Shown: positions 39,702-63,933 of the stretch, piece by piece
Layout of the letters: each line of letters begins with the position of its first letter
How positions within the stretch are numbered: the first letter of the stretch is position 1
Source: Bacteriovoracaceae bacterium
Lineage (GTDB): Bacteria > Bdellovibrionota > Bacteriovoracia > Bacteriovoracales > Bacteriovoracaceae
Reading direction: 5' to 3'
DNA length: 64,000 bases
NCBI GenBank assembly: GCA_023954635.1
Contig: JAGSHI010000003.1
Location: 1 to 64,000, forward strand
Position numbers and translations under genes: made by a program
Notes under the pieces: model-generated
Told to the model about the DNA's origin: nothing
Seen by the model: only the letters and a program-made list of their open reading frames with translations
The model's database searches: none

Positions 39702-40325
39702 ATGAAAAGTTTTAACCTAGTTCTATTGTCAGTCTTATTCGTCGTGTCGTCTAATGCGTATTCCGCAGGAATTAAGGATTCTTATTTAGGTCTTGGAAGT
39801 TACACCTTACTCCCTGGTAAAGTTCAAACAGATGAGAATGGTGACACTAATGGAATCTTCGACCTCGAACCCTATGTTCTTGGTGGGCTTGAGTATCAAG
39901 TTTATGAGGATTGGAGCCTAATCGGAGAAGCAGGCCTTGTTAAACCTGGTTCAGGGAGAGATCCTAAGATAAGCAAGATGACCTATTTCCTTCTTTTAAG
40001 TGGGGCCTATAATTTTATGGATTGGGTCTTTAGACTGGGAACAGGTATTTCTATGACTCGCATCAGCAGTGATGGGGGGACTCAAACTCTAAATAATGGA
40101 ACAGGAACTACTGATTTTCCAATGCCCGATGGTGCATCAGTCAGCCAAAATCTGATTACGACTTTTGGTGTCGAGTATTACTTCCATCAAGAGATGAGCA
40201 CTCGGCTCGAAGGACATTACTTTAACTTGGCTTCAGATGATGCAAAAACTTTAAGCTATACTCTTTCTTTTAGTTATCATTTTGGAAATATTTTTAGCGA
40301 TAGTAAAAAGGTACGTAAAAGATGA
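39702..40325 (+). CDS. Outer-membrane beta-barrel protein
   Basis: The 207-residue protein has a signal peptide (MKSFNLVLLSVLFVVSSNAYS) and about eight amphipathic strands (YVLGGLEYQVYEDWSLIGEA, YFLLLSGAYNF, TLSYTLSFSYHFG), suggesting an eight-stranded barrel of the OmpA/OmpW size class. It overlaps the matrixin-like gene by 4 bases, so the two products are coupled. A possible palindrome TTGGAA...TTCCAA lies upstream at 39652-39671. Confidence 0.75.
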   Translation: MKSFNLVLLSVLFVVSSNAYSAGIKDSYLGLGSYTLLPGKVQTDENGDTNGIFDLEPYVLGGLEYQVYEDWSLIGEAGLVKPGSGRDPKISKMTYFLLLSGAYNFMDWVFRLGTGISMTRISSDGGTQTLNNGTGTTDFPMPDGASVSQNLITTFGVEYYFHQEMSTRLEGHYFNLASDDAKTLSYTLSFSYHFGNIFSDSKKVRKR

Positions 40326-41110
40326 AAGTTCTCTTAACTATAGTCTTAAGTTTAATCACATCTAATGCGTTTAGCTTTTCACTAAATAATACAGTTGGCG
40401 CAGCTTTTAGTAAAAATACAGTTCCAGTTAATATTGCTGATAATTGTACAAACCTAGGTGTCTCCTCTGCGGAATTGTTATCTATGGTAAGTGATGCTGG
40501 CACAATGTATTGGAATACAGTATCAACTTCGAGACTAAGAATTACTGCCGGGAGTGTAGTATCTGTCGATTCTAAGTTTTATACTGATAAAGTTTGTACA
40601 ACAAACAGTGGGAGTTGTGAGCCAAACACCGACCTAACAGTGGCAAGCGATATTCTTATAACTTGCAATGGTGATACAACAGATAATTTTCCGAATGCTC
40701 AAAAAACTGTTCTCGCAATAACTATCCCAAATAATATTTCGGATAGAACTATTAATGGTGCACTCATTGCTATCAATGATCGATCGGATAATATTTTTCA
40801 AGATCAGTCGAGAGCGAAAATGGTATCGGTTTTGGCCCACGAAATAGGTCACGCAGTTGGGCTTGGGCACTCTCCAGTAGGTGACTCTTTAATGTATTAT
40901 ACTTTAGTCCCTGTCAGAGACAGACTTGGTTGGGATGATATCGATGGGATTACTTATCTCTACCCGAGAGAGCAGCCATTTGGATGCGGAACAATTGAAG
41001 ACATCAATAATAGTGGGAAAGGGGCTCCCCTTCTCTTTGTTCTTTTAATGCCCTTTCTACTTATTCAGTTATTGAAACTTAGAGATCGCTTTTCACATTC
41101 TTTCTCATAG
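40322..41110 (+). CDS. Exported matrixin-like metalloprotease with C-terminal membrane anchor or sorting tail
   Basis: A signal peptide (MKVLLTIVLSLITSNAFS) precedes a 262-residue protein with the metzincin zinc motif HEIGHAVGLGH (173-183) and a Met-turn SLMYY just after it. The glutamate and three histidines are all present, so it should be an active zinc endopeptidase. After the domain come a cysteine-glycine pair (FGCGTIED), a hydrophobic helix (PLLFVLLMPFLLIQLLKL) and basic residues, a layout like MYXO-CTERM-type sorting tails. Its stop overlaps the convergent aminopeptidase gene by 46 bases. Confidence 0.85.
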   Translation: MKVLLTIVLSLITSNAFSFSLNNTVGAAFSKNTVPVNIADNCTNLGVSSAELLSMVSDAGTMYWNTVSTSRLRITAGSVVSVDSKFYTDKVCTTNSGSCEPNTDLTVASDILITCNGDTTDNFPNAQKTVLAITIPNNISDRTINGALIAINDRSDNIFQDQSRAKMVSVLAHEIGHAVGLGHSPVGDSLMYYTLVPVRDRLGWDDIDGITYLYPREQPFGCGTIEDINNSGKGAPLLFVLLMPFLLIQLLKLRDRFSHSFS

Positions 41111-59806: not shown

Positions 59807-61543
59807 ATGACAGATAAAAAGAAAACCAACTTATTCGGTAAGCTCTTTTCCAAGTTTAAAAAGGGAAAGAAGGATTCCGATGGACATGATGACTTCGAGG
59901 AAGAGGAAGTCTTCGATGACTCTGAGCAGACTGCGTCAGGCATTCAGCTCGAAGATATTGAAGAAGACGAAGACGAAGTTTTTGTTGCACAAGAATTCAG
60001 TCTTTCTGACGAACAAAAAAATGATTTAGAGAGCGAACCAAATAGTGTCATCGATGAAGACTCAACAGGTGAGCATGACGTTGAGGCAATGTTATCTGAA
60101 GATGTCGACGACAATGAAGAACCCCCAGAGTTCGATGAACAGCTTCCTTCAGCACCCGATGTACCAGACCTCCCCCCTGATGACTTACCAGAAGATTTTC
60201 CAATTGAAGAAACTCCTCCCCTTTATGTAAATCAAGAAGGTGAAGAAATTCCTTCAATTCCGGGACAAGAAACAGAAGTCAATATGGAGGAGCCACCCTC
60301 TCCAAAGAAACCAAATGTCACAGAAAATCGTCCCATTGATTTAGACGCAATCAAAAATTATGAGTTTACTGAAGACGACGATCAGTCTGAAGCTGAAGAA
60401 ACACTTTCAAATTTTAAAATGTTTGACCCTACAAAACATGCCAAAGGCATCAAACATTTTCTAGAAAAGAGTAAAGAGAAGCTTGGAAATATTAAATTAG
60501 ATGATCTAAAAGCAAAGTTTAAAAACTTTTCTCACAAAAAAAGCTTAAAAGATTTCAAAACGCCAAAGTTCCTAAAGAATTTTAGTTGGGACAAGGCCAT
60601 TGAAGCACTCTATCACCCAGATTCCAGAAAAATGATTCATAGAGGTTTTATAGCTAGCTCTGTCATTGCTGGTACATGGTCAGCAGGAAAAATGGTTGCC
60701 CTCTCTCTTAAAGGACCACCAGATACAACAGTGAAGAAGTCATCTCCATTTCAATCTTCGAATTCAAAAGGATTTGTTTACCAGGATCTAAATAAAATTA
60801 AGCAAAGCAATCTTTTTAATGCAAAGCTTTCTGACCAAGAGCCAAAACTTTCAAGACCAAAGCCAAAAGTTGTTGATGAAACACTTGTGTGTTCTAAGGC
60901 CTCAAAGAAAAGCTCCCTCCCCCTAAAGTTAGTTAACACGACAGTCCTTCAAGATTCTGTAAAATCTATTGCCTCAGTTCAAATTCGTTCAAGTAAAGAC
61001 TTAGAAAATGTACGAGTTGGTGACAAATTAAAGACAATGGCCGAAGTTGGATACATCGATCGAATGAAACTTATCTTTAAAAACCTTAAAACAGGTGAAT
61101 GTGAATACATAGCAAGTGTTGACCCTAAATTTAAAGATGCTCGTCAGAAATTTAATATTGTTAGTCCTGCAAAGGGAAAACAATTAATGAAGAAGGCGAA
61201 AAATACTGAAATTAAAAATGAAGGAAACTCTTATCGAATTAAAAAGTCTGTTCGTGACAATATGTTGGCCAACATAAGTGAAGTACTCACTCAGGCCCGC
61301 GCCATCCAAATTAAAAATCCTGATGGATCTTATGCATTTAAGATGACTGAGATTGTTCCAGGTTCCGTTTATAGCCAACTGGGTATTCAAGACGGAGATA
61401 TCATTACACAAATCAACGGTAAAAGAATAACTAATCTAAATGAAGTCATGGCCTTATTTGGAAAGATTAAAAATATTGACCAATTCCAACTCAACGTTAA
61501 AAGAGGTGGAATTGAAACAACTAAAGATTACGAGTTCGAGTAA
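59807..61543 (+). CDS. gspC: Type II secretion GspC-like protein with long acidic cytoplasmic extension
   Basis: GspC links the inner-membrane platform to the secretin. The 578-residue product ends in the expected parts: a membrane segment at about 276-300, an HR-type domain at about 370-440 (LPLKLVNTTVLQD, SVQIRSSKD) and a C-terminal PDZ domain (PGSVYSQLGIQDGDIITQINGK). Before the membrane segment lies an unusual 275-residue cytoplasmic stretch, very acidic with a proline block (DVPDLPPDDLPEDFP) and then basic. Typical GspC proteins are about half this long. It is followed by gspD and gspE, which supports the assignment. Confidence 0.82.
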   Translation: MTDKKKTNLFGKLFSKFKKGKKDSDGHDDFEEEEVFDDSEQTASGIQLEDIEEDEDEVFVAQEFSLSDEQKNDLESEPNSVIDEDSTGEHDVEAMLSEDVDDNEEPPEFDEQLPSAPDVPDLPPDDLPEDFPIEETPPLYVNQEGEEIPSIPGQETEVNMEEPPSPKKPNVTENRPIDLDAIKNYEFTEDDDQSEAEETLSNFKMFDPTKHAKGIKHFLEKSKEKLGNIKLDDLKAKFKNFSHKKSLKDFKTPKFLKNFSWDKAIEALYHPDSRKMIHRGFIASSVIAGTWSAGKMVALSLKGPPDTTVKKSSPFQSSNSKGFVYQDLNKIKQSNLFNAKLSDQEPKLSRPKPKVVDETLVCSKASKKSSLPLKLVNTTVLQDSVKSIASVQIRSSKDLENVRVGDKLKTMAEVGYIDRMKLIFKNLKTGECEYIASVDPKFKDARQKFNIVSPAKGKQLMKKAKNTEIKNEGNSYRIKKSVRDNMLANISEVLTQARAIQIKNPDGSYAFKMTEIVPGSVYSQLGIQDGDIITQINGKRITNLNEVMALFGKIKNIDQFQLNVKRGGIETTKDYEFE

Positions 61544-61557
61544 TTCGAAGGCACGGG

Positions 61558-63933
61558 ATGCTTATGAACATTTTTGTCAAAACCTCACTCATTTGTACAC
61601 TAGTACTGGCTCCAGCTATTGGGCATAGTCAGTTTAAGAAATACAAATCAAATACAAACTTTAATTCAAACTCTAAAAAGTCCGTAGATACTCTCCTAGA
61701 TAAAGCTAAAAACTCAGGAGACAATTTATTTGGAAGAGGAACAGGTATCAACTCAGTTACTGGAGTCAAGAAAGATAGTAAGTATGTAAACCTAAATCCA
61801 GAAACTGCTTTTGGACCAGAAGTTGTCACAAGTTTTGATTTCCCAAATACATCTTTAGTAGACCTCACAAAACATATGCAAAAACTAACCGGGATCAATC
61901 TTATCTTAGATAAAGATCTTAAAGGTAAAGTTTCAATCATGGCGCCCTCCCCGATCACTGTCGGTGATGCCTGGAAAGCATATCTAACTGCATTAAATAT
62001 TAATGGTTACACTCTAGTGAAGTCTGGAGCTTTTTATAAAATCGTAAACGCTAGAGATATTAGATATACGCCGACTAAAATCTATACAGGAAACTACACC
62101 CCTGATACTGAAAACTATGTGATGAGAATTCTTCCACTAAAGAATATCGACTCCACTGAAGTAACGAGGTCCTTTAGACCATTTATGTCTCGTTATGGGC
62201 GAATCATCGATATTAAACAAACCAATACCATTATTGTTCAGGACACTGGCTCTAATATTAATCGACTCGTTAGACTTATCCAGTTCATCGATGTTCCTGG
62301 ACACGAAGAAACATTACAAATTATCCCAGTTCGCTATTCATCTGCTCAAGAAATTGCAAAACTTCTAGATCAAATTTTAAAAGGTGGAAAATCCGGGGCA
62401 AAGTTCAAACGCTCAAGTTCGAAGAAAAAAGACGATAGCATTAGTAAAATTATTGCAGAGCCTAGAACGAACTCAATTATCGCTATGGCCAATGCGGATG
62501 GGGCCAAGCAGTTAAGAAATCTTATCAAGAAACTTGATTCAAAACAATCTTCATCATCCGGTGGTCAAATTCATGTGTATTACCTGAATTATGGTGATGC
62601 TGAAGAGTTATCAAAAACTTTATCGACATTAGTCTCTGGAAGTGCTCCGAAGAAAGGTTCCCGATTTTCTAAAAATGCAGCGGATACAGGCTCTACTCTT
62701 TTTAATGCAGATGTTAAAATTACAGCTGATAAATCAAACAATGCACTTGTGGTAACGGCTTCCCCTACTGACTACCTTACAATTAAAGAAGTGATTAACA
62801 AGTTAGATGTTCCTAGAGACCAAGTTTATGTTGAAGGGATGATCATGGAAACGAATGTTTCTAAAGATAGAGGTTTTGGAATCTCAATTATTGGAGCATA
62901 CGGAACTGGTGGGACTCAAAAAGCAGGATTCACAGGAGGATCAACAGACCTAATCAATGTGATCACTAATAATATTACAAGCCTTGGTGGTCTCTTTATT
63001 GGAGGCGGAGCAGGGAAAACAATAACAACAGAAGTTGCTGGACAGTCGATTGAAATTCAATCAGTAAATGCACTACTAACAGCAATTGCGACTAACTCAG
63101 CAACAAATGTATTGGCCACACCTCAAATTCTTGCTCTCGATAATACTGAAGCTGTTTTTGAAGTTGGTGAAACAGTTCCTACTCCAGAAAAAACAAATGC
63201 CGCTAATGGTTCAAGCTCAGTATCGATTAAACAGCAGAAAGTTGCTCTTACTTTAAAGTTAACTCCTCAAATTAATAAAGTTACTCGAATGGTAAAGTTG
63301 AAAATCGACCAAAAAGTAGAAGACTTTTCAACACGAGCACTACCAGCAGGTCTTCAGAATGAAGGTGTCGCAACAACAACCAGAAGTGCTGTGACAAATG
63401 TAGTCATCAGAGACAAAGATACAATCGCGATGGGTGGACTCATGAGAGATAAGGCCACAAACAGAGAATCTAAAGTACCTCTTCTTGGTGATATACCAGT
63501 TCTTGGATGGCTCTTTAAGAACTCATCTAAAACAGTTGAAAAAGTTAATCTCTTATTCTTCATAACACCTAGAATTTTAGCTAATAATCAAGTATCAAAT
63601 GCTAAAAATATTAAGGACCTTCTCAATAGAAGAAGTGCTCACTTAAAAGATGCAGTTGAAGGTAAAGATCCGTTTGGTTCTACAGTTAAAGGACTTTTTG
63701 ACAAGGCCACAAAACAAGAAAAAGGGCCTCTCTATGATGAAAGAGATGCTAGAAAATACCGTGACAATAATAAAGGGCCAGGAATTGGTGGCCAAGGCGA
63801 AGAAGATGAAAGTGCACAAGAGTTACTCGAAGAAGAATTAATTGAAGATGATCAGGCTTCTAAAACGAATCCTGATTATAATAAGATTCTTCAAAAAGTA
63901 TCACAGAAGAAAGCTGCAATACTAAAGAAGTAG
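61558..63933 (+). CDS. gspD: Type II secretion system secretin
   Basis: The 791-residue secretin forms the outer-membrane channel. A signal peptide (MNIFVKTSLICTLVLAPAIG) is followed by the N0 domain (FDFPNTSLVDLTKHM), N1-N3 ring-building domains (LPLKNIDSTEVTRSF, VRYSSAQEIAKLL, VYYLNYGDAEELSKTL) and the secretin core with VEGMIMETNVSKDRGFG and the terminal VPLLGDIPVLGWLFKN. AAGG lies six bases before the ATG. The C-terminal tail is acidic, where a pilotin might bind. Confidence 0.96.
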   Translation: MLMNIFVKTSLICTLVLAPAIGHSQFKKYKSNTNFNSNSKKSVDTLLDKAKNSGDNLFGRGTGINSVTGVKKDSKYVNLNPETAFGPEVVTSFDFPNTSLVDLTKHMQKLTGINLILDKDLKGKVSIMAPSPITVGDAWKAYLTALNINGYTLVKSGAFYKIVNARDIRYTPTKIYTGNYTPDTENYVMRILPLKNIDSTEVTRSFRPFMSRYGRIIDIKQTNTIIVQDTGSNINRLVRLIQFIDVPGHEETLQIIPVRYSSAQEIAKLLDQILKGGKSGAKFKRSSSKKKDDSISKIIAEPRTNSIIAMANADGAKQLRNLIKKLDSKQSSSSGGQIHVYYLNYGDAEELSKTLSTLVSGSAPKKGSRFSKNAADTGSTLFNADVKITADKSNNALVVTASPTDYLTIKEVINKLDVPRDQVYVEGMIMETNVSKDRGFGISIIGAYGTGGTQKAGFTGGSTDLINVITNNITSLGGLFIGGGAGKTITTEVAGQSIEIQSVNALLTAIATNSATNVLATPQILALDNTEAVFEVGETVPTPEKTNAANGSSSVSIKQQKVALTLKLTPQINKVTRMVKLKIDQKVEDFSTRALPAGLQNEGVATTTRSAVTNVVIRDKDTIAMGGLMRDKATNRESKVPLLGDIPVLGWLFKNSSKTVEKVNLLFFITPRILANNQVSNAKNIKDLLNRRSAHLKDAVEGKDPFGSTVKGLFDKATKQEKGPLYDERDARKYRDNNKGPGIGGQGEEDESAQELLEEELIEDDQASKTNPDYNKILQKVSQKKAAILKK

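Follow-up and report, generated by a model that had tools for sequence, protein, structure and literature searches.

Closest described systems

Myxosortases are said to have been the subject of an in silico study by Haft and colleagues. For the MYXO-CTERM signal of Myxococcota, the available part of PMC11980579 describes the Cys, the enzyme MrtX and the dependence on type II secretion, and it provides the motif names EExxxR and HxxxN used below. As far as the accessible text of PMC3237569 goes, GlyGly-CTERM signatures never contain a Cys and MYXO-CTERM signatures always do. In Myxococcus, there is a four-base overlap between the traA ORF and the one later named traB, according to the portion of PMC3325183 at hand. 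Our literature search found no paper on a C-terminal sorting signal in Bdellovibrionota or on CTERM in Bacteriovorax; a wider search and one on Halobacteriovorax metalloproteases gave no title on such a tail in this group among the matches listed, and in the available part of a Halobacteriovorax paper (PMC12724312) the term CTERM appears once, in the reference list.

Little is known about how enzymes are placed on the surface in this predatory group. A common tail turns genomes into a readable list of candidate surface proteins, mostly proteases, and the gene pair described here, an outer-membrane barrel and a matrixin protease, offers a compact case in which to test whether a surface protease has a partner in the outer membrane.

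A barrel gene and a matrixin gene inherited as a unit

The window, that is, the whole stretch of 64,000 nucleotides that was analysed, belongs to a genome (G000) of 3.7 Mb in 219 contigs, 98% complete and 4% contaminated. Named relatives found were Halobacteriovorax, Bacteriovoracaceae and one unplaced Deltaproteobacteria MAG, and by its relatives the host appears to be a predator. The window's + strand holds a gene for an outer-membrane barrel of 207 aa (39702-40325) and one for a matrixin (M10) metalloprotease of 262 aa with a Cys-containing, sorting-like C-terminal tail (40322-41110), ORF positions being those given in an earlier, sequence-only reading. The 4-base overlap described there is borne out, with ATGA at 40322-40325 common to the barrel's stop and the protease's start. 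Both products begin with a signal peptide as judged by eye, a Sec signal at 39702-39767 in the barrel and residues 1-18 (40322-40375) in the protease.

On the opposite strand, the pair is flanked by two genes whose sequences read as serC-like and aminopeptidase P-like. The latter converges on the matrixin gene, and their 3' ends overlap by 46 bases (41065-41110). An identical 46-base overlap is found in locus L003. The Cys motif precedes these shared bases, so dual coding does not explain its conservation. A promoter scan revealed no promoter excess, and terminator-like sites from a scan fall within the tail coding region.

AlphaFold2 modelled the upstream product as a signal helix (residues 2-19) followed by eight strands (pLDDT 74.5). 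The best solved-structure matches of this model in Foldseek include Ail (E 9.8e-9), OmpA, NspA, OprF and OmpX, and Pfam returned only PF13505, below threshold (17.8 versus 28.7). The protein is predicted to be an eight-strand barrel of the OmpA/OmpX type.

The sequence-only reading had made its case depend on conservation of the pair, and the pair is indeed conserved. At 46 of 46 distinct protease loci scored, the nearest upstream ORF was a barrel-family member, called by single-sequence phmmer at 1e-4 in 45 loci and by a profile in the last; the final barrel E-values were obtained with a profile in which the members themselves are included. The count covers loci with a recognised protease ORF, the active-site pattern having missed L041, L042, L050 and L054. 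Spacing between the two genes ranged from a 100-base overlap to a 159-base gap, with exactly -4 as the commonest value. In trees of 43 pairs, six paralogous pairs formed an identical clade for barrel and protease (support 0.978 and 0.998), indicating that the pair was inherited and duplicated as a unit. Patristic distances of the two proteins over the same 43 pairs correlate at 0.75, or 0.80 without the paralogues. One of the six is a second barrel-matrixin pair in G000 (L038:2397-3746, contig C204), whose protease is about 34-36% identical to that of the window and carries the tail GCGTIED.

Pairing this strict could suggest that the barrel translocates the protease in the style of two-partner secretion, and export through the barrel had been proposed from the sequence. 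We consider this very improbable, since the predicted eight-strand barrel of the OmpA/OmpX type would be too narrow to let a folded protease through, and since proteins of other folds carry the tail as well.

A matrixin with intact active-site residues and an apparently odd cysteine

The protease matches the Pfam matrixin model PF00413 at 46.6 bits against a cut-off of 24, which places it in M10, and has distant matches to the structures of human stromelysin and bacterial karilysin. The HExxHxxGxxH site and the motif known as the Met-turn, both claimed to be intact, are present as HEIGHAVGLGH (residues 173-183; 40838-40870) and Met191 (40892-40894; invariant in 6/6). They are followed, again as had been described, by C222-G223, a hydrophobic stretch and basic residues: the signature Cys-Gly-Thr-Ile occupies residues 222-225 (40985-40996), and a polar linker, a hydrophobic helix (about 237-252) and a basic end occupy 40997-41107. 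The predicted structure has a pLDDT of 61.9 and falls below 50 over residues 181-237, too low for a judgement on the tail or on how the Cys residues pair; its best Foldseek matches were matrixins, none at E 0.001 or better. NF041905, a myxosortase-dependent metalloprotease, is the NCBIfam model that scores best with the window matrixin (26.9 bits), with its paralogue (23.9) and with a long relative of 593 aa (53.3), against a cut-off of 250.

A search of 129 genomes of the class found homologues of the protease in 124 (E 1e-5). We compared 47 distinct homologues from 55 loci, a nonrandom set made up of the five first-found relatives, the best 30 of the class search and 20 hand-chosen loci, with duplicates merged and no ORF obtained by the script from L005, L022, L037 and L045. 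Cys42, Cys115 and Cys222 were each present in 47/47 by script reading, whereas Cys92 and Cys99 were present in 38 and both absent together from the same nine. The Cys motif is also held by the tails of L037 and L045, which were read separately, and by that of L005. The joint loss of Cys92 and Cys99 implies one 92-99 disulfide, which leaves three invariant Cys and hence an odd one; from the sequences, the unpaired residue would be Cys222.

The tail recurs on proteins of unrelated fold

The tail consists of Cys-Gly-[Thr/Ser]-[Ile/Val], a polar or Gly-rich linker, a helix and a basic end in which Lys and Arg are mixed rather than Arg-rich. A search of G000 for further carriers showed that it is not confined to the protease: it terminates at least five proteins of this genome, namely three matrixins, a subtilase and a Gly-rich protein, and it recurs in relatives, supporting the earlier proposal of a MYXO-CTERM-like C-terminal signal in the sense of a repeated tail. 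A profile built from 19 protease tails (A3) matched two proteins that are part of it, the window protease at 7.6e-17 and its paralogue on C204 at 1.7e-11. It also matched two proteins that are not, a truncated Gly-rich protein on contig C52 (E 1.4e-7) and a matrixin of 596 aa on C194 (E 6e-5). Six weak matches came after these (0.66 to 4.97); one of them, the subtilase on C98 at E 4.75, was recognised by its full motif. The C52 fragment is adjoined on the opposite strand by a gene for an RCC1-like repeat protein with a long EPTP repeat (L137:3-1415; named by eye).

Adding the further own-genome tails gave profile A4, for which matches in G000 hold by construction. A4 matched 80 of 129 class genomes at E 0.01; the 49 with no tail match at this threshold count against the best reading of the tail, given below. 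Across the phylum, at E 0.001, at least 69 of 324 genomes matched, at least 65 within the family and at least four outside it, all lower bounds with at most 22 candidates scored per genome; about 208 genomes lie outside the family, as estimated from a count of 116 family genomes at 80% completeness. Inspection of four outside matches revealed the motif in G278, G257 and G280 and a match without it in G291.

Controls indicate that the tail is more than chance. In a set of 967 ORFs, A3 and A4 matched 71 and 68, respectively, at 0.01, and 67 of the A4 68 hold the motif. This set is enriched for tail proteins by the choice of loci, which makes the altered sequences the informative ones: 0/967 reversed ORFs matched, and 1/967 with the last 60 residues shuffled.

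Nineteen of 20 tail-matching stretches that were read gave a tail-bearing ORF (L195 gave none). Carriers in relatives comprise long matrixins, subtilases, Gly-rich proteins and a third small metalloprotease; for those submitted to Pfam and NCBIfam, M10 and S8 were supported and three Gly-rich proteins returned nothing. At four of four loci read (L146:3438-6007, L178, L179 and L215, the last cut at the locus edge), a protein of roughly 250 aa with its own C-terminal helix is encoded upstream of the long tail-bearing matrixin and nearly overlaps it, and a conserved secreted protein of roughly 160 aa follows downstream. A trypsin/V8-like serine protease gene precedes the tail-bearing subtilase in two of four subtilase loci read (L180, L190), and genes for collagen-like proteins with GPQGP repeats lie just upstream of Gly-rich tail proteins in two of two (L181, L185).

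The spacing within the tail is not uniform. Long linkers separate the Cys motif from the helix in L033, L055 and L057, and in L048, L053 and L054 the Cys stands at a different distance from GTI/GSI. This is odd for a tightly read cleavage signal and counts against the best reading. It would suit a tail that is a mere inner-membrane anchor, with a structural Cys whose disulfide closes the catalytic domain, neither cleavage nor lipid, and a periplasmic protease, as would the finding, detailed below, that CPBP proteins and exosortases are not general. Such an anchor nevertheless strikes us as rather unlikely, as the Cys is odd and fully conserved, and as subtilases and Gly-rich proteins, whose folds are unrelated, likewise have Cys-Gly-[ST]-[IV] next to their terminal helix.

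Compared with known signals, the window tail matched none of the NCBIfam families, and none of ten other tails exceeded a cut-off. The best tail of a relative scored 15.3 versus 20 with TIGR03901 and 15.2 versus 15.85 with TIGR03382, both below the MYXO-CTERM models. Features in common with MYXO-CTERM are an invariant Cys with helix and basic end, and several carriers per genome; a co-occurring cognate CPBP myxosortase was not found here. As neither the models nor a cognate enzyme support it, we do not claim MYXO-CTERM membership. By the Cys rule set out in the accessible text of PMC3237569, this tail falls on the Cys (MYXO-CTERM) side, and its best reading, by analogy, is that it works like MYXO-CTERM.

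Candidate processing enzymes

The check for a single cognate sorting protease did not yield one: no candidate among CPBP proteins, exosortases and rhomboids of the type encoded on contig C218 is general. The CPBP family (PF02517) was detected in 81 of 129 class genomes and not detected in 24 of 80 tail-positive genomes, or in 5/29 once a completeness of 95% or more and a contamination of 5% or less were required. Tail-positive genomes lacking a PF02517 match include G046, G045, G041, G054 and G115, all at least 97% complete. A CPBP as obligatory general partner was therefore rejected, with the possibility that a divergent CPBP was missed by the Pfam model. Tail-positive genomes of this kind raise the question of which enzyme could process a Cys-type tail. 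Tail and CPBP presence (56/24/25/24) are weakly associated, at a p of 0.039 uncorrected for descent.

Both CPBPs of G000 score below the myxosortase cut-offs (MrtJ, 29.2 versus 75; MrtA, 84.7 versus 200). The one on contig C17, of a type found in 14/129 genomes, is an improbable candidate enzyme despite its MrtA match, reading by eye IEYFFR and HIIIA where EExxxR and HxxxN are expected. The one on C16 keeps EExxxR, His and HxxxN (by eye) and matches MrtJ best (1.1e-6). Together with the weak tail-CPBP association, this would fit the C16 protein as the cognate myxosortase in this host, another enzyme taking its place in relatives; its type, however, occurs in only 49 of 129 genomes and shows no association with tail presence (p 0.46), and we regard this assignment as unlikely.

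Exosortases (PF09721) were detected in 7/129 genomes, three over the cut-off. With none in G000, the tail is not assigned to PEP-CTERM, and with none detected in 122/129, an exosortase was rejected as the processing enzyme.

Rhomboids, in turn, are nearly universal, occurring in 128 of 129 class genomes. Three are encoded in G000, of which the GlpG-like one is the best match to the rhombosortase model TIGR03902 (1.6e-12; 47.7 bits, under the cut-off of 84). These observations, and the many tails that are Gly-rich before the helix, are consistent with processing by a rhomboid, GlpG-type or rhombosortase-like, instead of a CPBP, the Gly-rich linker being the cut zone; GlpG and the substrate VesB also appear in the discussion of PMC11980579, so far as that text was available. 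Yet rhomboids are present in 14/14 control genomes too, so that presence says little, and the GlyGly-CTERM rule cited above, from the accessible text of PMC3237569, excludes Cys. The C218-type rhomboid was found in only 71/129 at 1e-5, partly through weak matches to the longer GlpG-like rhomboid; it is not associated with tail presence (p 0.36) and was rejected as general partner as too patchy. We thus hold rhomboid processing to be a doubtful, if conceivable, alternative. Across the three enzyme classes tested, no sole general partner emerges, save the near-universal GlpG-type rhomboid, whose presence is no evidence.

A proposed route to the cell surface

Further downstream on the + strand, the window encodes a GspC-like protein with a PDZ domain (59807-61543; PF11356 below threshold, PDZ_6 28.3 versus a cut-off of 27) and the type II secretin GspD (61558-63933; PF00263 1.1e-45, PF21305 9.2e-14), and type II secretion is thus available. 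This system is relatively complete in the phylum, according to the part of PMC12724312 that was available, and would be the matrixin's likely route across the outer membrane.

Our preferred reading, of which the chances seem to us evenly balanced, is that the two genes form a unit serving a protease held at the cell surface. Both products would reach the periplasm by Sec, and the C-terminal helix would anchor the protease to the inner membrane so that Cys222 faces the periplasm. As in MYXO-CTERM, this unpaired residue would be modified, probably lipidated, and an intramembrane protease would cut off the helix. The folded matrixin would then be exported by type II secretion and held on the cell by its lipid. 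The eight-strand barrel may serve as its dedicated outer-membrane partner, be it a docking site, a stabiliser or a regulator of activity, a partnership that could be likened to that of TraB, which overlaps and works with the MYXO-CTERM protein TraA. More tentatively, Bdellovibrionota might possess a separate Cys-type C-terminal sorting system, not yet covered by a model, that delivers proteases and Gly-rich proteins to the predator surface and whose tails are processed by an enzyme other than the CPBP myxosortases known to date, the matrixin having the barrel as receptor or switch.

Comparison with known systems

GlyGly-CTERM and its rhombosortase, as covered in the available part of PMC3237569, resemble the present system in a Gly-rich stretch, helix and basic end on exported proteins. 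The tail described here differs in holding a Cys in all 47 homologues, and no rhombosortase exceeds the cut-off in G000. The NF041905 proteins (MXAN_2677/2678) differ in that our matrixins score far under the cut-off and match locally, over the active site.

Closer is MYXO-CTERM with MrtX in Myxococcota. In the available part of PMC11980579, many surface proteins likewise carry an invariant Cys followed by a C-terminal helix and a basic end, and the TraA tail, as printed there, reads CGT after its first Cys. The same text gives type II secretion as the outer-membrane route, which we infer here as well. In contrast to MYXO-CTERM, fewer carriers were found per genome, there is no MrtX match and CPBP is not general. 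Finally, TraA and TraB of Myxococcus, as far as the portion of PMC3325183 at hand describes them, likewise combine a Cys-tailed surface protein with an envelope partner encoded by ORFs overlapping by four bases. TraA is a PA14 receptor and TraB has an OmpA-like domain, whereas here a protease is joined to a bare eight-strand barrel and the gene order is reversed.
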